From positions 1 through 36,150 of the forward strand of contig JAGPGT010000009.1 in the NCBI GenBank assembly GCA_018055905.1: 36,150 nt of DNA. Direction: 5' to 3'. Shown here one piece after another: positions 3,645-29,452 of this stretch (position 1 is its first letter; each line of letters opens with the position of its first letter). The translations under genes and the position numbers were made by a program. This DNA comes from Phycisphaerae bacterium. Its GTDB lineage: Bacteria; Planctomycetota; Phycisphaerae; Sedimentisphaerales; Anaerobacaceae. Below the pieces are notes generated by a model. The model had not been told where the DNA came from. It made no database searches and saw only the letters and a program-made list of their open reading frames with translations.

Positions 3645-4487
3645 TCATTTCCCCAGATTTTCGAGAACCTCGACGACCAGTCGCACCGCGTTCTTGGCCG
3701 CCAGGGCATAGAATTTCTGCTTGTCCACAACCGCGCTGTGGTCGGCCTTGTCGGCGATGCTGCGAAGGACCAGGCACCCGATGCCGCGTTGGTGACAGAT
3801 CTGCGCGACGGCCGCCCCTTCCATATCCACCACATCGGCACCAAACATCTCCGCCAGTTTGCGACTCTGGGTTTGGGACGCCACGAAGGTGTCGCCTGTG
3901 ACGAGCGTCCCGACGACAACCCGTGGGGGGCGTTGGCCGTTGAAATGGTCGATCGGGTCGAAGGTCGTTGTGCCCGCCGCGTGTCGGGCGGCGGCCAACA
4001 GGTCGGGGTCGGCGGGGAAAAACGTGGGGTTCGTCTCCTCCGTCAGGCGATTTCTCACACCACCCGGCTCCAGTCCCACCGGTCCGATGTAGCCCATGTC
4101 GTGATGAGCGGTCCGTCTGGCGACGACGATGTCCCCCGGCTCCAGATTGGGATCGATGGCCCCCGCGATTCCCGTGAGCACCACCCGCGTCGGTTGGAAA
4201 TGCTCGATCAGGAGGGTGGCCACCATGGCCGCATTGACTTTTCCGACACCCGTCCAGGCGACGACGACAGACCGGCCCGCGATCCGGCCGGACGTGAATT
4301 GGATGCCTTCGAACTCCAGCGACACGGCCTCCGCCAGTCTGGCCTCAAGTTCCGCGACGTCCTGCGACGAAGCGCCGAGGACCGCCACCGGTCGCGTGGA
4401 AACACCAGGCGCTCGAACCGAAGTGCAGGAAACCAGCGATAGGAGAGACGCGAGGCAGACCATCATTATCACAAGGCATCGGGCCAT
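3645..4487 (-). CDS. lipoprotein MTA/SAH nucleosidase-like protein
   Basis: 280 residues. The ATG at 4485-4487 has AGGAG 6 bases upstream; longer readings run into the tRNA gene. The start MARCLVIMMVCLASLLSLVSC is a lipoprotein signal peptide with an LVSC lipobox (Cys21). From residue 32 it is a PNP/UDP-phosphorylase-fold nucleosidase of the MTAN type: GVGKVNAA, GIAGA, GDIVV, VVDMEGAAVAQ (Glu223) and RSIADKAD (Asp246), equal to catalytic Glu174 and Asp197 of E. coli MTAN. The loop that holds Glu12 in E. coli reads GASSQDV, so Asp43 replaces that Glu. The family hydrolyses MTA, SAH and 5'-deoxyadenosine to adenine plus a ribose derivative, normally in the cytosol; export would be unusual. The purine permease follows 9 bases downstream. 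Confidence 0.8.
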   Translation of the reverse strand: MARCLVIMMVCLASLLSLVSCTSVRAPGVSTRPVAVLGASSQDVAELEARLAEAVSLEFEGIQFTSGRIAGRSVVVAWTGVGKVNAAMVATLLIEHFQPTRVVLTGIAGAIDPNLEPGDIVVARRTAHHDMGYIGPVGLEPGGVRNRLTEETNPTFFPADPDLLAAARHAAGTTTFDPIDHFNGQRPPRVVVGTLVTGDTFVASQTQSRKLAEMFGADVVDMEGAAVAQICHQRGIGCLVLRSIADKADHSAVVDKQKFYALAAKNAVRLVVEVLENLGK

Positions 4488-4524
4488 GACTTCTCCTGCA
4501 CCAGCCTGCAATCCATGGGCCAAA

Positions 4525-4608
4525 TGCGAGCGAGAGGAGTCGAACCTCCACGTCCTTACGGACACCAGGACCTAAACCTGGCGCGTATGCCAGTTCCGCC
4601 ACGCTCGC
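4525..4608 (-). tRNA. tRNA-Leu (anticodon UAG)
   Basis: An 84-base cloverleaf on the minus strand. The acceptor arm GCGAGCG (4608-4602) pairs with CGCTCGC (4532-4526), with A as discriminator. The anticodon stem CCAGG/CCTGG holds the loop TTTAGGT, giving anticodon TAG. The long variable arm GTCC..GGAC is typical of class II leucine tRNAs, and the T-arm GGAGG-TTCGACT-CCTCT is intact. The CCA end is not encoded. The lipoprotein nucleosidase gene starts 37 bases downstream with no visible terminator in between. Confidence 0.95.
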
Positions 4609-4633
4609 AGCGGGTTTTTCGGATCTCGGAGTC

Positions 4634-4808: not shown

Positions 4809-5852
4809 CTACTCCGCATGACGAGCGGCAGACGAACCGGAAGGATGCATTTCCGACTCGCTTGCCAGCCGGCTTCGCAGCATCCGTTGAACTTCCTTGA
4901 TGTCGCCACGGACCTCGTCCACAGACCGCCCCTGAATCATCGCGACCTCGTCAGGCTCCCACCCGTCGAGCACATGCAAAGTGAATGCCCTCCGCTGGGG
5001 GGAAGGGACATCGCTCAGTTGCGTCATAACCCATTTCATCTGATCGATGGCCGCCAACTGGATCCAGGGTTCGTCCGCTTCAGAGCTGGGCAACACATCT
5101 TCGAACGTCACCAGATGAGGAATTTCCCAAACGGGGGTGTCGTCGGCGAGAGGACTTTCCAAGTGTTGACGGACGGAGTCATACACTTCGGCCGGAGCGG
5201 CGAGGGGCAAAGCCTTTCCCGCCGTGGCGATTTGCTCATCAAGGGTTTCATGCAAGAGTTGAGTCAGCCAGACCTCCAAAGGCCGGCGGTCATCCCACCG
5301 GTCCAGACGGGACCACGCCCGCACGATGACTTCGTCGAGCAGATCGTCCACCACCACCTGTTCACGTCCGATCCGCCCCTGCAACTCGGCAATCATCAGC
5401 TCTTGGCGGGCATGATCCGAAAGCCTTTCCATCAAAGGGGTCAGAAGACGGAAAAATGCCTCTTTGTCCAGACTGCAGGGTTGCGGCCTCAGTTTCGACT
5501 CCACCGACCGGGACAACTCCTTACGGTACCACTTGCGGTCGTGCAGGTGCGCGCGACGGACTAGATCCTTGTGTCGTCGGATTCCTCCGACCAACTTGTC
5601 GACCGCCGCGTCGATCGCCTCCCGATCCGTCGGTGACGAAACCTCTGCGGCCAACGAACCGGTGGGCAAGAGCAGAACGACACGCACGTCATGCCGCTTG
5701 GGCTTGTGCGTCACGGTCAGACGCAATTCCCGTTGATCTTCCGGGAATCGCGTCAGAAGCCTCTTGATCCTCGGAACCTTCTGTTGCCAGTAAGACTTGA
5801 TGGCCTCCTTCTGCCAGTCCGGACAATCCTGAAACACGATGTGGTCCGACAT
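4809..5852 (-). CDS. HPF/RaiA-like domain fused to sigma-70-like regions
   Basis: 347 residues; ATG at 5850-5852 with GGGAG and AGGGA upstream. Residues 1-115 look like the ribosome hibernation factor HPF/RaiA fold: an alternating pattern of DWQKEAIKSYWQQKVPRIKR, RELRLTVTHKP, HDVRVVLLLPTG, and a helix REAIDAAVDKLVGGIRRHKD with the basic tail. Residues 130-210 resemble sigma region 2 (FFRLLTPLMERLSDHARQEL, DDLLDEVIVRAWSRLDRW). Residues 275-330 resemble region 4 with a helix-turn-helix (LSDVPSPQRRAFTLHVLDGW, EPDEVAMIQGRSVDEVRGDI). HPF proteins bind the 30S decoding centre in slow growth; sigma domains bind RNA polymerase and DNA. The region-2 core is divergent, so true sigma activity is unproven. 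It follows the two PAC2 genes by 60 bases, probably in the same transcript. Confidence 0.7.
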   Translation of the reverse strand: MSDHIVFQDCPDWQKEAIKSYWQQKVPRIKRLLTRFPEDQRELRLTVTHKPKRHDVRVVLLLPTGSLAAEVSSPTDREAIDAAVDKLVGGIRRHKDLVRRAHLHDRKWYRKELSRSVESKLRPQPCSLDKEAFFRLLTPLMERLSDHARQELMIAELQGRIGREQVVVDDLLDEVIVRAWSRLDRWDDRRPLEVWLTQLLHETLDEQIATAGKALPLAAPAEVYDSVRQHLESPLADDTPVWEIPHLVTFEDVLPSSEADEPWIQLAAIDQMKWVMTQLSDVPSPQRRAFTLHVLDGWEPDEVAMIQGRSVDEVRGDIKEVQRMLRSRLASESEMHPSGSSAARHAE

Positions 5853-5911: not shown

Positions 5912-6751
5912 CTATCCATGCCTGCGAAACGCCCCCCGGATGGCCTCGATCAGTTCGACTTGCTCGTGGCTCTCCAGGGACTCCCCCTGCTCAAGCCTCT
6001 GGATCCTGGCGTCGATCTCGATGTCCTCTTGCCGCAGGTTGGCGAGCATTTCCTCCTGTTCTTTTACACGTTGGTCCAACTCCTCAGTCTCATAATGCCA
6101 GCCGAGGATCCGACTTAACAACAACACAGCCGATCGGATCGCCTGGGCGTCCTGGCGATCGGAAAGGTAAAACGGCACCTCAAGCCAAAGCCCCGCCGCC
6201 TGGAGACCCCTGCGCCCGGCCAACCAGAGCAGATACGTGCTCATGTGCGGCGTCCCCTGCCAACGCAACCCGATGGGCAGGTGCCATTTGAGTTTGCGCT
6301 GGACCTCGACACTGTTGAAAACCCCGAATACCCTGCGGTCGAACGTGTGAGGGATCATCGACGCGATGCCGTTGACCGTGTACACAGACTCCACCTTGAA
6401 GCACTCCGCCAAGTCCAGCACCGCGCTGAGAAACTCATACCGTCGCGATTGGGGCTCGTCGGACCGCAACAGCAGCAGTTTACTGTGATCATCGTGGAAG
6501 AACCGGCTCTGCGGGAATGTCGCAATGTTGCTCTCGACGGTCACCCCGCCCACCGCGAAAAAATCCGTCGGTTCGATCTGGCAAAAACTGCGCCCGCCGG
6601 CGGCGTGGGCCAGGAAATCGGCCACACCCCGGCTCACATCCCCGACATCCTTCATCCAGCCCACAATCAACGAAGGTTTCTCCAGCCTTGGTTGCGACGT
6701 GAAGCGAAAGATTTCAGGTCTCCTTGTGGGAATCGTTTCTAAAGAGCTCAT
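5912..6751 (-). CDS. PAC2 family protein (second of a tandem pair)
   Basis: 279 residues. The ATG at 6749-6751 lies inside the end of the preceding PAC2 gene (38-base overlap) with TGGAG 7 bases upstream. The fold is the PAC2/COG2047 type: KPSLIVGWMKDVGDVSRGVADFL, an EPTDFF segment, SRFFHDDHSKLLLLRSDEPQ, VESVYTVNGIASMIPH, and LWLEVPFYLSDRQD. The C-terminal 65 residues (about 215-279) are a charged coiled coil. PAC2 proteins are homologues of eukaryotic proteasome assembly chaperones; bacterial members are mostly uncharacterised. It lacks the glycine-rich GAGVTTIHH loop of its neighbour, so the two probably form an unequal heteromer. No signal peptide; cytoplasmic. Confidence 0.8.
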   Translation of the reverse strand: MSSLETIPTRRPEIFRFTSQPRLEKPSLIVGWMKDVGDVSRGVADFLAHAAGGRSFCQIEPTDFFAVGGVTVESNIATFPQSRFFHDDHSKLLLLRSDEPQSRRYEFLSAVLDLAECFKVESVYTVNGIASMIPHTFDRRVFGVFNSVEVQRKLKWHLPIGLRWQGTPHMSTYLLWLAGRRGLQAAGLWLEVPFYLSDRQDAQAIRSAVLLLSRILGWHYETEELDQRVKEQEEMLANLRQEDIEIDARIQRLEQGESLESHEQVELIEAIRGAFRRHG

Positions 6752-7616
6752 CGATATGCTCCAGAATATCCTTCTGTTCCGCTTCGGTAATCGGACCCAA
6801 GTCTGACCGCCTGGGGCGCCGTAGGATCTTCATCTCCTCTCGAATCTGCTCGGGGAGTTCGTCCGCGGCCGCCAGTGCCTCGAGGACCTGGTCAATGTTC
6901 GCATTCACCTTCTCGGCGGTCTCCTGGAGCTCTCGCAGATCCATCGGCACCTGGAGGATCTCGCCGAGGACTTCCAATATGGAAATCGACGCCTTCGGAT
7001 AGGGCCATGGGGCCCCCTGCAGATAGTAAGGGACCTCCCCCATCAGACAAATCGCCTCCACCTCCCTGCTCTTGGCCACTCCCAACAATAGGCCGTTGAG
7101 ACCGGTGATGGCTCCTTCGCCTTGCCGGTCCCCAATCTCCGACATCAGGATGGTGTTGGAGTATTCACGAATCTCGCAAATCAGATTCGGCTGGTTCGGT
7201 ACCGCCCACACTTTCGGCTTGTTCGTATGGTGAATCGTCGTTACCCCCGCGCCCGCCGTGTAGATCCTGCGGCAACCCAGCATATCCGCGACATCCAGAA
7301 CCATTTCAGCCATCTCGTAAGTCTTGTTGGGATCCGAGGGCTGCTGCTCACCTACGAGAAAGACAAAATCTCGTTGCGGTCCGTGAAAGGCATAGAATCG
7401 GGTCGCAGGAAAGCGCATTTCTTCAATCAACCCGTTGACGATCAAGGCTCGGGAAGGCTCAAAAAAGCCCTCCGGCTCGATCTCCCCAAAGGGTTCGGCC
7501 TCCGTCAGTCGTCGCATTGTGTTGACGGCGACCAGTCCGACTCTACCGATCCCGGACCAGCCGCAGATCATGACAGGTTGCTTGAGATCGGGTTGACAAT
7601 ACAGTCGCACGCCCAT
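6714..7616 (-). CDS. PAC2 family protein (first of a tandem pair)
   Basis: 300 residues, ATG at 7614-7616 with AAGGAG 6 bases upstream. Typical PAC2 (proteasome assembly chaperone 2-like, COG2047) features: MICGWSGIGRVGLVAVNTM near the N-terminus, EIEPEGFFEP, FVFLVGEQQPSD, MLGCRRIYTAGAGVTTIHH, TGLNGLLLGVAKSREVEAICLMGEVPYYLQ. The C-terminal third (about 215-300) is a charged helical/coiled-coil tail. It overlaps the second PAC2 gene, showing translational coupling. No proteasome subunit, Pup ligase or Mpa gene lies in this window. The function in this organism is unknown; an adaptor or assembly role is inferred only from the family. Confidence 0.85.
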   Translation of the reverse strand: MGVRLYCQPDLKQPVMICGWSGIGRVGLVAVNTMRRLTEAEPFGEIEPEGFFEPSRALIVNGLIEEMRFPATRFYAFHGPQRDFVFLVGEQQPSDPNKTYEMAEMVLDVADMLGCRRIYTAGAGVTTIHHTNKPKVWAVPNQPNLICEIREYSNTILMSEIGDRQGEGAITGLNGLLLGVAKSREVEAICLMGEVPYYLQGAPWPYPKASISILEVLGEILQVPMDLRELQETAEKVNANIDQVLEALAAADELPEQIREEMKILRRPRRSDLGPITEAEQKDILEHIDELFRNDSHKET

Positions 7617-22874: not shown

Positions 22875-23104
22875 GTCTCAGCAGATCCAGCATGATCACT
22901 GATCTCCCCTGTCCAACGAACAGACCGCATGCCCACCCTTGCTTCGGAGTGTCGTCGCCGATACCATGACGCTCGTTGACTTTGCGACATGTGAATGGAA
23001 CCGACCAAAGCGGATGACACCATGACGGAATCGAAGGTGCAAAGGCAACCGGAATGCCTATTGGTTCCGACGATCGGGATCAGACTATCTCACAAGGAGA
23101 ACGG

Positions 23105-25441
23105 ATGAAACACATACACAACTTCCTCGCCGCCTGGAGTGTAATGTTCGCATGGCTCGGGATGCTTTCCGCAGCCGCTGATTCATTGCCGCCGACCGAT
23201 CCACGACCGTCCGTCGCATGCGACCACTTCCCTGACCGCGTGCACGCCTTCGTCTGGCGGAACTGGGAGATGGTCTCGCTGGAGCGGATGGCTGAGGTGC
23301 TCGACACGACCCCCCAGAAAATCCGTGACATGGGCCTGTCCATGGGGCTCCCGCCTCATCGAACGCCTCCTGCAGAGTATCAGGAGCGAGGATACATCAC
23401 CCTTATCCGGCGGAACTGGCACCTCCTGCCCTATGAGCAACTCCTCGAACTGCTGGCCTGGGGTGCCGACAAGCTCGCCTTCGCTCTGCGCGAGGACGAT
23501 TTCCTGTGGATCAAATTGGGTTCGTTTAAACCGTCCTGCCCGACGCTGCGGTACGTCGAGCCGAATGAGGCCACCGCCAAGCGGTGTGAACAAATCAAGA
23601 CGATCGTCGCGTCGAACTTCGCAGAGGAGTTCACAAAGCCCTGGACACCGCGGTTCGAGTTCCTCCGAAGCCTGTCGACTGCGAACCCCGAGCCGAGCCC
23701 CCGCGTCTCGTCCGCGGGCGACCCAAAGATCCGCTTCCTCTATTCCTATTGCGGCGTCTTTGGCGACCCGCTGCTAAACCCCGAACTGGACCCGTATCCT
23801 GACGGCCTGCTCCAACAACTCTCCAACCTTGGAGTCAACGGCGTCTGGCTTCACGTGGTTTTGCGGCAACTTGCCCCGAGCGATCTCTTTCCGGAAGAAC
23901 GTACAAGCTGCACGCAGCGGATCGCCACTCTGCGACGACTCGTCGAGCGAGCGAGGAGCTACGGTATTGACATCTACCTGTACATGAACGAGCCGCGGGC
24001 GATGGGGGCTTCATTCTTCCAAGGCCGCGAACATCTGCGAGGTGTCCAGGAAGGCAACCATTTTGCCCTGTGCACCTCGACGCCTGAGGTCCGCCAGTGG
24101 CTCGCAGACTCCCTGACTTACGTCTTCAAACAAGTACCCGATCTGGGAGGCGTTTTTACCATCACCGCCTCGGAGAACTTCACCAACTGCTACAGTCACA
24201 GCCACACCGCGGCGGGCTGTCCCCGCTGCTCGAAACGTTCCGGACCCGAAGTGATCGCGGAAGTCAACCACACGATCGCAACCGCTGTGCATGCCGCAAG
24301 CCCCACCGCCAAGGTAATCGTTTGGGATTGGGGTTGGCCCGACGGCACCGACGCAGGCTGGGGCAAACCTGACTGGGCCTCGCAGATCATCGACGCCCTA
24401 CCCAAAGACGTATATCTGATGTGTGTGAGCGAATGGGGCAAACCCATCGTTCGCGGCGGCGTCGCCAGCGGTGTGGGCGAGTATTCCATCTCCTCCGTCG
24501 GTCCCGGGCCGCGAGCTTTGCGCCACTGGGCCCAAGCCAAAAAGCGAGGCCTCAAGACGCTCGCCAAGGTCCAAGTCAACTGCTCGTGGGAACTCTCGGC
24601 GGTCCCCTACCTGCCTGTGATGAACCTCGTCGCACAGCACTGCCGCAATCTGTCGGACACAGACATTGACGGCCTGATGCTCAGTTGGAGCGTCGGCGGA
24701 TACCCCTCTCCCAACCTGGCGCTCGTGAGGCAATTCGAATCCGAGCCCGCCCCCACGATCGAGCAGGCGTTGGCGACCGTCGCCCGATCTCGCTACGGCG
24801 TCGACGCAGCCCAAGACGTGCTCTCCGCGTGGTCGAAGTTCAGCGAGGCTTTCGCGGAATACCCCTTCCACGGCGGGTTCGTCTATACCGGCCCGATGCA
24901 GTGCGGCCCAAGCAACCTCCTGTACGCCAAGCCGACCGGCTACGCCGCGACAATGGTTGGCTTCCCCTACGATGACCTGAACCAATGGCGAGCGATCTAT
25001 CCCGCGGAGGTTCTGAGGACGCAATTCGAGAAGATCACCGTCGGCTGGCAGGAAGGTCTCGCGATCCTTGACCACGCGCAGAACAAAGCGACAGCCGCAG
25101 TCCACCGTGCGAACCTGCAAATCGATCACACGCTTGCGGAGGCGGCAGGCCTCCACTTCCGCAGCGTGGCCAACCAGATTCGCTTTGTCATGAGCCGCGA
25201 CGCGCTGCTCTCGGGCTCGCTCCCGCCGAACCAACGCAAAGCGTACAGTGAAACCGCCCGAAATACTTTGCAGGACGAGATTCGTACGGCCAGTCGCCTT
25301 TTCGCGTTGACCCTACAAGATTCTCGTATCGGGTACGAGGCTTCGAACCATTACTACTATTTGCCTTTGGATCTCGTGGAAAAAGTCATCAACTGCCAGC
25401 ACATTCTCGACACCGCATTCGCGGAGGCAGACGGATTGTGA
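23105..25441 (+). CDS. secreted TIM-barrel protein, putative glycoside hydrolase
   Basis: 778 residues; ATG at 23105 with AAGGAG 5 bases upstream; an earlier in-frame ATG at 23054 lacks a binding site. Signal peptide MKHIHNFLAAWSVMFAWLGM. Residues 35-150 contain two helical repeats that look like degenerate helix-turn-helix units: FVWRNWEMVSLERMAEVLDT and IRRNWHLLPYEQLLELLAWG. From about residue 205 a TIM barrel follows: LYSYCGVFGDPLL, LSNLGVNGVWLHVVLRQLAP, RARSYGIDIYLYMNEP, TITASENFTNCYSHSH, CPRCSKR, KVIVWDWGWPDG. It resembles beta-hexosaminidase-like or alpha-glucuronidase-like barrels, but the DE motif of GH20 is absent. The C-terminus is helical. First gene of a four-gene secreted hydrolase set. 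Confidence 0.7.
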   Translation: MKHIHNFLAAWSVMFAWLGMLSAAADSLPPTDPRPSVACDHFPDRVHAFVWRNWEMVSLERMAEVLDTTPQKIRDMGLSMGLPPHRTPPAEYQERGYITLIRRNWHLLPYEQLLELLAWGADKLAFALREDDFLWIKLGSFKPSCPTLRYVEPNEATAKRCEQIKTIVASNFAEEFTKPWTPRFEFLRSLSTANPEPSPRVSSAGDPKIRFLYSYCGVFGDPLLNPELDPYPDGLLQQLSNLGVNGVWLHVVLRQLAPSDLFPEERTSCTQRIATLRRLVERARSYGIDIYLYMNEPRAMGASFFQGREHLRGVQEGNHFALCTSTPEVRQWLADSLTYVFKQVPDLGGVFTITASENFTNCYSHSHTAAGCPRCSKRSGPEVIAEVNHTIATAVHAASPTAKVIVWDWGWPDGTDAGWGKPDWASQIIDALPKDVYLMCVSEWGKPIVRGGVASGVGEYSISSVGPGPRALRHWAQAKKRGLKTLAKVQVNCSWELSAVPYLPVMNLVAQHCRNLSDTDIDGLMLSWSVGGYPSPNLALVRQFESEPAPTIEQALATVARSRYGVDAAQDVLSAWSKFSEAFAEYPFHGGFVYTGPMQCGPSNLLYAKPTGYAATMVGFPYDDLNQWRAIYPAEVLRTQFEKITVGWQEGLAILDHAQNKATAAVHRANLQIDHTLAEAAGLHFRSVANQIRFVMSRDALLSGSLPPNQRKAYSETARNTLQDEIRTASRLFALTLQDSRIGYEASNHYYYLPLDLVEKVINCQHILDTAFAEADGL

Positions 25442-25528
25442 AATAACCCCACTGAGAACATCGTCCTAGCACGTACTGGAGATTCTCGTCGGAGTCCAGT
25501 CCAATACAGGGCACAGGAGATCCCATCG

Positions 25529-27112
25529 ATGAAACAGATCGCAATGATCGCTCTGCTCGTTTTCCTGCCGGCCGGCTTGACCACAGCCCAACCGAATATG
25601 ACGGCAGACGCCCCCGCCGTAAGCGTCCCGCCGGAGTCGTTCTTCAACATGGTTCGCGAGAACGACCGCGAGGCGGCCCGGCAGTTCTACAAGAAGTATA
25701 TTGACGTCAAGGGCCTTCCGGTCGCGGCGTCGGCGGAGGTCGCAGACCTGGCCCTCCAGAGGACCTACGAGATTGTTACCCATATGCTCGCGGGACGACC
25801 CGACGTCCTCCAGGCAATGGCCGAGCGGGGTATGTATTTGATCATCATCGGCAAAGATCAGGTCTATACCGACATGCCTGAGTACCGCAGAAGCCCGAAC
25901 CCGGACTTTCAGAACGAGCGAGTCCGTGGCACCGGCGGCCTGCCCACCAGCTTCGGCGAGGAGAACCTCCTGAGCCTGCCCATTGACCGCTATGACGACG
26001 AGAGCATCGCGGTCCATGAGTTCTGCCACACGATCGACAGCACACTGAGCCGGATCGATCCGACTTGGCGGGAACGCAAGAATGCGGCCTACCAGAACGC
26101 CCTTAGGAACGGGCTCTACTTCAACACCTACGCAGGCTCCAATTCCGCGGAATACTGGTGCGAGATCGCTCAGGCATACTTCGACTGCAATCGCGTCAAC
26201 AACTGGAACCATGGACCGATCGGCCACCGCGAGCAACTCAAGGCCTATGACCCCGTCGGCTACGAACTGTGCCGAACGGCATTCAATCTGAGCCCCGAGC
26301 AGGACTGGCGATACAAATGGCTCCAGGAATTGCCGAACGTGACGCGCCCGCCGGAGCGGTTCAAGATTGATCCGTACTACACCAAGTTCACCTGGGCCCG
26401 CGAGTTCGTCGTCGTTGGGCGACAAGCCAGCAACGAGGCCCTCTTGCACGCCAACGAAACCATCCGCCGGATGTTCGCCTACCGGCACGACATCCTCAAG
26501 GCCTTCATCGCCGAGGGCATGAAGTTGGTTGTGCTGGGGCACGACGAGCGGATCAGCGATCTGCCTGAGTACAAGCAGCTCAGCGATCCCAAGGCCATCG
26601 ACGCCTTGTCCCGGTATCTCACCTATATGCCTGAAATGAAGCTGCTGGTCGTGGGCGAGGAGAACGTCTTGGCGAACCCCCGCGACATGTACGTCGGCGA
26701 CTGCCAGGTGATCCGCGTCTTCGCAGATGCGATCCACCGCGTGACGGGCACGAGACCGTTCGATCCGGATTTCGAGAACCGCCCCCGCGGCGTCTGGCAG
26801 CAGTACGAGCTTCGCGTTCAACGACTGGACGAACGTTTCGACGCCAGGCTCAAGGAACTCTTCGAGAGGGCAACCGCCGCAGGCAAATGGCAAGGCACCT
26901 CCGCCCTCGCAGATCGCACCGCCTACTGGACGGCAGGTGTTCTGGCATACTTCGACGCCCTGGGACATGACGACGCGCCAAACGACGCTGCCCATCCGAT
27001 CGACACGCGGGAGAAGCTCAAGGCTTACGACACCGACCTGTTCGCCCTTGTCAACGAGACGATGGCCTATGAAACGAAAGTCGATTGGCGATATCGACCC
27101 TACCGACAATAA
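25529..27112 (+). CDS. secreted duplicated metalloprotease-like protein (second half inactive)
   Basis: 527 residues; ATG at 25529 with AGGAG upstream; signal peptide MKQIAMIALLVFLPAGLTTAQ. Two copies of one domain. Copy 1 (about 75-275) has the zinc motif HEFCH at 163-167 and, downstream, SAEYWCEIAQAYFD, whose Glu is a likely third ligand as in lethal-factor-like peptidases. Copy 2 (about 305-527) repeats the layout: RRMFAYRHDILKAFIAEGMK matches THMLAGRPDVLQAMAERGMY, GEENVLANPRDMY matches GEENLLSLPIDRY, and REKLKAYD matches REQLKAYD. The HExxH place reads IRVFADAIH and the third-ligand place TAYWTAGVLAYFD, so the zinc site is lost. The first half may cleave peptides; the second may bind or regulate. 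The next gene is a dipeptidyl peptidase. Confidence 0.75.
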   Translation: MKQIAMIALLVFLPAGLTTAQPNMTADAPAVSVPPESFFNMVRENDREAARQFYKKYIDVKGLPVAASAEVADLALQRTYEIVTHMLAGRPDVLQAMAERGMYLIIIGKDQVYTDMPEYRRSPNPDFQNERVRGTGGLPTSFGEENLLSLPIDRYDDESIAVHEFCHTIDSTLSRIDPTWRERKNAAYQNALRNGLYFNTYAGSNSAEYWCEIAQAYFDCNRVNNWNHGPIGHREQLKAYDPVGYELCRTAFNLSPEQDWRYKWLQELPNVTRPPERFKIDPYYTKFTWAREFVVVGRQASNEALLHANETIRRMFAYRHDILKAFIAEGMKLVVLGHDERISDLPEYKQLSDPKAIDALSRYLTYMPEMKLLVVGEENVLANPRDMYVGDCQVIRVFADAIHRVTGTRPFDPDFENRPRGVWQQYELRVQRLDERFDARLKELFERATAAGKWQGTSALADRTAYWTAGVLAYFDALGHDDAPNDAAHPIDTREKLKAYDTDLFALVNETMAYETKVDWRYRPYRQ

Positions 27113-27166
27113 TCGGGCCTGCGGCGTTCGGGCCGGAATTGAAAGGATCGTGTTTTGAGGACAACA

Positions 27167-29452
27167 ATGGATAGAACTGTATGGGGCACATCGCTCGGCA
27201 CGCCCCTGACCCTCGCGATCGTCGCTGTTTCGATCGCGATGGGAGCGACGGAGGAATCGCCTCAGGGCCGTTACGGACCGCCGCGTCGTGTCGAGGGCTA
27301 CTACAAAGGCCAGATCACGCCGCATTGGTTTGCAGACAACCAACGCTTCTGGTATCGCAACGATTTGACCGGCGGGACGAAAGAGTTCATCCTGGTCGAT
27401 GCGGAACAAGGAACCAGACAACCTGCATTCGATCACGCCAAGCTCGCGGCCGCCCTGTCGAAGACCGTCGGCAGCGAGTACAAGGCAGATCGACTGCCCT
27501 TCGACACGATCGAATTCGCCGATAACGGCAAGATCATCCGATTCGCAGTCGAGCAAACCAGCTGGGATTGCGACCTCGCGTCGTACGCCTGCACGAAATC
27601 AGACGAAGCGATGGCGTTACCCTCTGCCGACCGGGACCAAGGCGCCGAGGCATCTGTTCGGCGACGGGGAACGGGCCAGGGACGTGTCCCCTCGCCCGAC
27701 TCTCCCGACGGCAAGTGGACCGCCTTCATCAAGGACCACAATGTCGTCATCCGACCCAAGGAAGGAGGCGAAGAGATCCGGCTCAGCGCCGACGGCGTCG
27801 AAAGCAACGCCTATGACCGGATCTCCTGGGCCCCGGACTCCAAAACTCTTGTGGCATTTCGGATCGAGCCGGGCGATGGGAAGGAAGTCTATCTCATCGA
27901 GTCGTCCCCCGCCGGCGGCGGACGGGCCAAGTTCTCCAAGCGGCCCTACTCCCTACCGGGCGACAAGTTCGCGACCTATGAGCTGAACCTGTTCGACGTC
28001 GAGGGCCGCAAGCAGATCAAGCCCGAAGTGGACAAGCTCGAACTCGACTGGCAGACGCCGAAACTGCGATGGATGAAGGATCAACGTCACTTTACTTATG
28101 AAAAGGTGGATCGCGGGCACCAGCGGTTCCGTGTAATCGAGGTCGACTCACACACAGGCCAGGCTCGCAACCTCATTGACGAGAAGACCGAGACCTTCAT
28201 CTGGACCGCCCACACGGAGAACCTCGGACTCTCGCTGGTCACCTGGCTGGACAAAACCGACGAGATCGTCTACGCTTCCGAGCAGAATGGGTGGCGACAC
28301 CTCTATCTCATCGACCCCGAGAAAGGCGAGGTTCGCAACCAGATCACCCAGGGCCAGTGGGTCGTGCGAGGAATCGATCGGATCGACGAGGACACCCGTC
28401 AGATCTGGTTCAACGCCTCCGGGCGAAACACAGATGAAGATCCCTACTTTCTCCATTACTACCGCATCAACTTCGATGGCACAGGCCTCGTGGCTCTGAC
28501 CGAAGGCAACGGGAACCATTCGATCCAGTACTCGCCCGACCGTCGTTATCTGATCGACACGTACAGTCGCGTGGACATGCCTCCCGTGCACGAGTTGCGC
28601 CGCGTCTCCGACGGCAAACGGATCTGTTCCCTGGAAAAGGCTGACATCAGTGAGCTGATTGCCAAGGGATGGACCGCGCCCGAAGTGTTCGTCGCAAAAG
28701 GCCGCGATGGAAAGACCGATATCTGGGGAATCCTCTGTCGGCCCAAGAACTTCGACCCATCAAAGAAGTATGCGGTTATTGAACAGATCTACGCCGGACC
28801 GCAGAGTTCTTACGTTCCCAAGAGTTTCAGTCCGACGTCGCGGTTCGCTTCGCTGACGGACCTCGGATTCGTCGTCGTACAGATGGACGGCATGGGCACT
28901 GCCAACCGATCGAAAGCGTTTCACGACGTCTGTTGGCACAACCTCAAAGACGCGGGCTTCCCCGACCGCATCCTGTGGCACCAGGCTGTCGCCGGGAAGT
29001 ATTCGTGGTACGACATCGACCGCGTCGGTGTCTACGGAACCTCCGCCGGCGGCCAAAACGCCGCAGGCGCAGTGTTGTTCCATCCGGAGCTCTACAAAGC
29101 CGCCGTCGCTGCCTGCGGGTGCCATGACAACCGCATGGACAAGGCCTCCTGGAACGAGCAGTGGATGGGCTACCCGGTGGGACCGTGGTATTCCGAGTGC
29201 TCGAACATCGACAACGCCGGTCGGCTCAAAGGCAAGTTGTTCCTGATCGTCGGCGAAATGGACAACAACGTCCCGCCGGAATCGACGATGCGGTTCGTTG
29301 ACGCCCTGATCAAGGCGGGCAAGGATTTCGACCTGCTCGTCGTGCCCGGTGCCGGGCACGGCATGGGCGGCGCGTACGGCCAGCGACGGATGCAGGATTT
29401 CTTTGTGCGTCATCTGCTCGGGGTCGAGCCCCCCGATCGCAATGGCACATGA
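27167..29452 (+). CDS. secreted S9 family dipeptidyl peptidase (DPP IV-like)
   Basis: 761 residues; ATG at 27167 with GAGG upstream (TTG at 27155 overlaps that site and is rejected). Signal peptide with a hydrophobic stretch TPLTLAIVAVSIAMG. Residues 35-470 form the DPPIV_N beta-propeller (HWFADNQRFWYRNDL, SPDGKWTAFIKDHNVVIRP, ISWAPDSKTLVAFRIE). Residues 490-761 form the alpha/beta hydrolase: nucleophile Ser626 in YGTSAGGQ (GTSAGG rather than the usual GWSYGG), Asp699 in GEMDNNVPP and His731 in PGAGHGMGG. S9 enzymes cut dipeptides from the N-termini of peptides, often after Pro. Exported to the periplasm or surface. It lies 54 bases after the metalloprotease-like gene. Confidence 0.9.
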   Translation: MDRTVWGTSLGTPLTLAIVAVSIAMGATEESPQGRYGPPRRVEGYYKGQITPHWFADNQRFWYRNDLTGGTKEFILVDAEQGTRQPAFDHAKLAAALSKTVGSEYKADRLPFDTIEFADNGKIIRFAVEQTSWDCDLASYACTKSDEAMALPSADRDQGAEASVRRRGTGQGRVPSPDSPDGKWTAFIKDHNVVIRPKEGGEEIRLSADGVESNAYDRISWAPDSKTLVAFRIEPGDGKEVYLIESSPAGGGRAKFSKRPYSLPGDKFATYELNLFDVEGRKQIKPEVDKLELDWQTPKLRWMKDQRHFTYEKVDRGHQRFRVIEVDSHTGQARNLIDEKTETFIWTAHTENLGLSLVTWLDKTDEIVYASEQNGWRHLYLIDPEKGEVRNQITQGQWVVRGIDRIDEDTRQIWFNASGRNTDEDPYFLHYYRINFDGTGLVALTEGNGNHSIQYSPDRRYLIDTYSRVDMPPVHELRRVSDGKRICSLEKADISELIAKGWTAPEVFVAKGRDGKTDIWGILCRPKNFDPSKKYAVIEQIYAGPQSSYVPKSFSPTSRFASLTDLGFVVVQMDGMGTANRSKAFHDVCWHNLKDAGFPDRILWHQAVAGKYSWYDIDRVGVYGTSAGGQNAAGAVLFHPELYKAAVAACGCHDNRMDKASWNEQWMGYPVGPWYSECSNIDNAGRLKGKLFLIVGEMDNNVPPESTMRFVDALIKAGKDFDLLVVPGAGHGMGGAYGQRRMQDFFVRHLLGVEPPDRNGT

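Follow-up and report, generated by a model that had tools for sequence, protein, structure and literature searches.

A ribosome hibernation domain fused to a degenerate sigma-factor-like module in Planctomycetota: a possible ribosome-docking sigma mimic

The window, a 36,150-nt stretch of DNA from a Phycisphaerae bacterium, contains a gene whose product joins an HPF/RaiA ribosome hibernation domain to a C-terminal half in which the predicted structure has sigma2 and sigma4 folds in their usual order (Table 1). The gene is real, is under purifying selection in both halves and is not decaying. Judged by sequence, its sigma half probably does not work as a sigma factor and probably does not recognise promoters. 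We tentatively propose that the protein is a ribosome-docking sigma mimic, similar to PhyR in its logic, that engages a partner of sigma factors (an anti-sigma factor or the clamp of RNA polymerase [RNAP]) instead of DNA.

Table 1. The fusion gene and its parts, in window coordinates
Feature	Position	Strand	Residues	Remarks
HPF-sigma-like fusion gene	4809..5852	(-)	347 aa	ATG start; stop codon included
HPF/RaiA domain	5550..5852	(-)	1-101	b-a-b-b-b-a; basic K25, R28, R31, K86, R93, K95 and R99 kept
Linker helix	5478..5549	(-)	102-125	predicted, low confidence
Sigma region-2-like domain	5211..5477	(-)	126-214	DLLDEV...RAW...W signature; region 2.3/2.4 acidic
D173	5334..5336	(-)	173	sigma70 Q406-equivalent core-contact position; D or E in 25/25 family members
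Sigma2-sigma4 linker	5067..5210	(-)	215-262	fast-evolving
Sigma region-4-like domain	4851..5066	(-)	263-334	most DNA-contact residues lost, yet under purifying selection
Degenerate recognition helix	4884..4922	(-)	311-323	VDEVRGDIKEVQR

Two unrelated Pfam domain families match non-overlapping parts of the 347-residue chain, and structure comparison (Foldseek, VIA-align) confirms both folds in the predicted structure, a model of modest confidence. The initial annotation had placed HPF/RaiA in the first 115 residues and sigma regions 2 and 4, with a helix-turn-helix, at residues 130-210 and 275-330. These boundaries were nearly right, and the HPF/RaiA domain was borne out by a Pfam match above the cut-off and by a fold match. 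For the C-terminal half, sigma-like folds were recovered at residues 126-214 and 263-334, but the implied working sigma factor with a DNA-binding helix found no support: DNA-contact and promoter-melting positions are lost or charge-reversed, every member has a change at the best-conserved core-contact residue and eight members lack sigma4. Pfam, NCBIfam and a profile built from 16 family members (A3) all matched both domains rather than one only; run against PDB sequences, the A3 profile by itself picks up ECF sigma factors (5.6e-18) as well as HPFs (2.3e-13).

A full-length copy is present in five of the nine genomes of the genus, the window's own included, and the other four copies are 61-76% identical to the protein of the window with the whole layout kept; the layout is therefore neither a frame artefact nor due to chance. 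Within the genus, dN/dS was ∼0.11-0.21 for the whole chain where synonymous sites were unsaturated, ∼0.07-0.12 for the HPF part and, equally low, ∼0.06-0.11 for the sigma4-like part; synonymous sites are close to saturation, which makes all these values rough. Constraint is clearly weaker on the sigma2-sigma4 linker than on the domains (0.38-0.39 where measurable). Because its dN/dS is as low as that of the HPF part, the sigma4-like part must be retained for some function. The weak scores of the sigma half against single Pfam models could point to a chance open reading frame (ORF), a chimeric assembly or gene decay, but full-length orthologues in five separately assembled genomes of the genus, the grouping of members from across the phylum into one clade in either domain tree and dN/dS values of roughly 0.1-0.2 already refute this explanation, to which we give practically no credence.

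Judged from sequence, the HPF half looks more normal than the sigma half. Pfam Ribosomal_S30AE (PF02482) matches residues 16-96 (1.3e-7; 32.7 bits against a cut-off of 23.7), NCBIfam yfiA matches residues 16-99 (8.8e-6), and Listeria HPF matches residues 16-102 in a phmmer search against PDB sequences. The S30AE profile also matches 14 of 16 members of the fusion family. Fold prediction, which the initial annotation had suggested as a check, gave an HPF-like N-terminal half: residues 1-98 of the model match V. cholerae HPF (4hei_A; Z 12.1, 2.0 Å over 90 residues), as well as other ribosome-bound HPF/pY structures (8uu4_w, Foldseek probability 1.00). At seven positions of helices 1 and 2 compared with canonical HPFs, the basic character is shared, and all seven are basic in the window protein and in its genus. 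Among more remote members, G168 keeps 7/7 and the others keep 2-6/7; with so few basic positions in some of them, ribosome binding may not be universal in the family. The C-terminal dimerisation domain of long HPF (lHPF; PF16321) had no match in the window protein up to an E value of 10. An ordinary, stand-alone HPF is encoded elsewhere in the same genome (G000:C350), and the fusion is therefore an extra, regulatory-looking copy. Separate HPFs were also among the matches listed for several other fusion genomes in a family-wide S30AE search, which lists the strongest matches, does not have the diverged fused HPF domains among them and is not an unbiased count.

In the C-terminal half, Pfam Sigma70_r2 (residues 161-201; 4e-4, score 20.6 against a cut-off of 24) and Sigma70_r4_2 (residues 274-315; 7.8e-5, 22.7 against 25.7) match just under their cut-offs, and NCBIfam sigma70-ECF (TIGR02937) spans residues 161-329 (1.4e-8, 34.5 against 42.9). 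Searching PDB sequences with phmmer matched CnrH to residues 148-199 and SigG1 to residues 145-332. The structure model likewise shows a sigma fold: the best structural matches of residues 123-336 are sigma-anti-sigma complexes, namely RpoE-NepR (5uxx, Z 14.1), SigW-RsiW (5wuq, Z 12.2) and CnrH-CnrY (4cxf, Z 12.1), and PhyR-NepR (4qic) matches the same residues with Z 10.5. The PhyR_sigma-like Pfam model matches residues 279-316 of the window protein weakly and 10 of 16 members overall (best 1.5e-7), and the NCBIfam PhyR model matches 13 of 16 (best 3.3e-8), while ordinary sigma models fit the module equally well or better. The receiver domain of PhyR (Response_reg) had no Pfam match in the window protein; we rejected membership in PhyR for lack of this domain and keep PhyR as an analogy.

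The features by which sigma factors read promoters are largely lost. Q406 of sigma70 is a core contact that is important for core binding, and the equivalent position is D or E in every fusion (25/25), compared with Q in 15 and S in 2 of the 17 extracytoplasmic-function-type (ECF) sigma factors of the window's own genome. In an alignment of 17 fusions with these 17 ECFs, the median charge of region 2.3/2.4 was -3 in the fusions versus +5 in the ECFs (p 1e-6) and that of the region-4 recognition helix was -1.5 versus +3 (p 2e-5); with one representative per lineage, p was 3e-5 and 3e-4, respectively. The -35 element is contacted by T168, K170, T171, R172 and R175 in SigW and by R149, T169, R171, S172 and R178 in SigE (PMC6713349). 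The window protein aligns E313, R315, G316, D317 and E320 with the SigW contacts, and H293 and Q322 with SigE R149 and R178 (SigE numbering by our own count); R315 is the only promoter-contact residue kept at the SigW and SigE positions compared. Eight of the 25 members (G449, G473, G695, the second G673 copy, G753, G708, G720 and G646) end after the sigma2-like part and have no sigma4. Two of them, G695 and G753, come from single-contig, nearly complete genomes, and inspection by eye of the three frames after the stop codon found no hidden sigma4 in G695, G449 and further sigma4-less members. All members retain the region 2.2 signature and the aromatic residue in region 2.3. No part is better conserved than the region 2.2 helix signature, D-x-x-D/E-E...A...W, which is found even in members without sigma4. 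The module has the sigma2/sigma4 folds of an ECF and misses the curated cut-offs, the basic promoter-contact surfaces and the core-contact Q.

We searched for other copies with profiles built from the genus proteins and then from the 16 members (A3), and of the 392 phylum genomes sampled, 17 had the fusion, as did 6 of 317 genomes of the class; one search of genome contigs returned only two close orthologues. The search for copies proposed in the initial annotation has thus yielded a family of ∼25 proteins in 12 families, scattered through Planctomycetota. The fusions fall on one side of a branch from 21 canonical HPFs in the HPF-domain tree (100/99) and from the 17 ECFs of the window's genome in the sigma tree (97/99), both trees being built from short domains and the latter with an ECF sample from one genome. 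Because they form one clade in both trees, the data are consistent with a single old fusion that was then inherited or transferred patchily. One contig, G673:C44, carries two fusion paralogues ∼17 kb apart (L075, L205), one with sigma2 and sigma4 and one with sigma2 only.

The genes beside the fusion differ between lineages, and therefore the context gives no partner and a conserved operon partner was ruled out. PAC2 genes are found in the window and FlgE, BON-domain, histidine kinase, GH113, CHAD, EamA and L19 genes elsewhere. Among the neighbourhoods compared across lineages, no anti-sigma gene is conserved beside the fusion. Only in the related genomes G588 (L079 5601-7479) and G612 (L081) do an ECF-like sigma gene and a gene with a weak zf-HC2 match, a possible anti-sigma factor, lie 1-3 kb from the fusion, and these form a candidate partner pair. 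Directly upstream of the fusion in the window, on the same strand, are two neighbouring PAC2-family genes with a slight overlap (proteasome assembly chaperone-like; 5912-7616, (-)). Just downstream is a tRNA-Leu (4524-4609, (-)), which is overlapped by a GTG-started nucleosidase ORF (3645-4565) whose annotated start is probably too far upstream. Within the genus, core genes are found close to the fusion: in G004 (L013) and G005 (L015) a TatD-like gene and dnaG (read from the N-terminus), in G004 also the start of rpoD (Sigma70_r1_1), and in G001 (L012) rplS (L19), which adjoins it. In G168 it adjoins flgE. Farther along the window, the ORFs at 23054-25438 (+, 795 aa) and 25469-27556 (-, 696 aa) have no Pfam match at 1e-5; the second largely overlaps a long ORF on the opposite strand and may not be a gene.

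How could such a protein work? Its fold and retained basic residues suggest that the HPF domain would occupy the mRNA/tRNA channel of idle 30S subunits. The ECF-like module would be a protein-binding decoy for a normal partner of sigma2, with sigma4 helping where it is present. The likeliest partner would be an anti-sigma factor, by analogy with partner switching by PhyR; how much free mimic is available to titrate the anti-sigma factor would then depend on the state of the ribosome pool, and translational shutdown would be coupled to a stress regulon. As a second choice, the partner may be the beta' clamp, with polymerase tethered or blocked at hibernating ribosomes. Binding to ribosomes, the choice of partner and the resulting coupling are all inferred. 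It is plausible that ribosome hibernation is linked to the control of transcription, and it is a fair guess, short of an expectation, that the protein is a single-chain coupler: its HPF half would read idle ribosomes or occupy them and its sigma-mimic half would govern an anti-sigma factor or RNAP, so that the ribosome pool would directly set a transcriptional programme in Planctomycetota.

We favour a sigma mimic because sigma-anti-sigma complexes are the best structural matches, PhyR models match and promoter-reading features are lost. The proposal is weakened because no anti-sigma gene is conserved beside the fusion and ordinary sigma models match at least as well as those of PhyR, because members with sigma2 only cannot imitate a whole sigma factor clasped by an anti-sigma factor, and because remote members lose basic HPF positions and the structure model is modest. 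A role in which the sigma2-like domain binds the beta' coiled-coil of RNAP in the absence of a promoter, so that hibernating ribosomes hold the RNAP core or exclude it, seems to us somewhat unlikely. Conservation of the region 2.2 helix signature, also where sigma4 is gone, would fit it, as would the contact of sigma2 with the beta' coiled-coil in ECF-RNAP structures (PMC6411747), and it would be a one-protein version of the separate Rsd and RMF/HPF of E. coli, where Rsd and RMF coordinate RNAP and ribosome hibernation (PMC6904343). However, the D/E found in every member at a position that is Q in most sigma factors examined may weaken canonical clamp binding.

We rate as rather unlikely that the degenerate sigma fold has no link to transcription and is only a structural, ribosome-side extension, which would bind another ribosome site or a second ribosome or would dimerise, comparable to the C-terminal domain of lHPF or the CBS module of HibA. 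HPF is fused to other modules elsewhere, the most recent case being HibA, whose CBS module also binds the ribosome (PMC13324472), and the sigma-like part is degenerate and variable. On the other hand, the sigma2 signature and the sigma fold are conserved in very divergent members and the sigma2 and sigma4 parts are under purifying selection in the genus, which suggests that sigma-type surfaces still matter. Far less probable is an active ECF sigma with an unusual promoter, whose activity would be released when the HPF domain senses free ribosomes. Although the two-domain fold is ECF-like, R315 of the recognition helix is kept and some Planctomycetota ECFs carry extra domains, regions 2.3/2.4 and the recognition helix are acidic, the core-contact position is D/E, the Pfam r2 and r4 scores are under the cut-offs and natural members exist without sigma4. 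Charge, the Q406 position and the loss of sigma4 ruled out a working ECF sigma as the main reading.

The HPF-sigma fusion is apparently undescribed so far: as the initial annotation had supposed, no described protein of this layout was found in the open-access literature searched, which is weak evidence of absence. Bacteria that stop growing have to switch off ribosomes and RNA polymerase at the same time, and a hibernation domain and a sigma mimic in one chain would, if true, be a physical link between both shutdowns. Next to PhyR, the family would be a second architecture for a sigma mimic and, next to HibA, a new kind of HPF fusion, and its natural sigma2-only members would reveal which sigma surface matters. 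We would assign the fusion to the HPF kind by its sequence, as it has the HPF domain and lacks the full set of ECF features, with PhyR as an analogy only.

Compared with known systems, the N-terminal 101 residues share with HPF/RaiA (YfiA, pY; PF02482) the fold, a score above the Pfam cut-off and the basic helix positions, but they have a diverged N-terminal strand and a longer alpha1-beta2 loop and form their own clade (100/99). Unlike lHPF, the fusion has no PF16321 domain and carries the sigma-like module in its place. With the ECF (group IV) sigma-70 factors RpoE, SigW and CnrH it has in common the order of the sigma2/sigma4 folds, the region 2.2 signature and the W of region 2.3, whereas its promoter-contact surfaces are acidic, its Q406-equivalent is D/E, its linker is long and variable and sigma4 is sometimes absent. 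In PhyR of Alphaproteobacteria, the sigma-like module does not act as a sigma factor and works on an anti-sigma factor; like PhyR, the fusion appears to join to a sensing domain a sigma-like module without promoter-binding surfaces, which PhyR models and structures match, but it has an HPF domain instead of a receiver, belongs to a different phylum and has no known NepR-like partner. HibA of Archaea also joins a hibernation (HPF/RaiA) domain to another module, in this case a ribosome-binding CBS module and in reversed domain order (PMC13324472). E. coli achieves a joint shutdown of transcription and translation by coupling RNAP and ribosome hibernation via Rsd and RMF/HPF, which are separate, co-regulated proteins and not one chain (PMC6904343).
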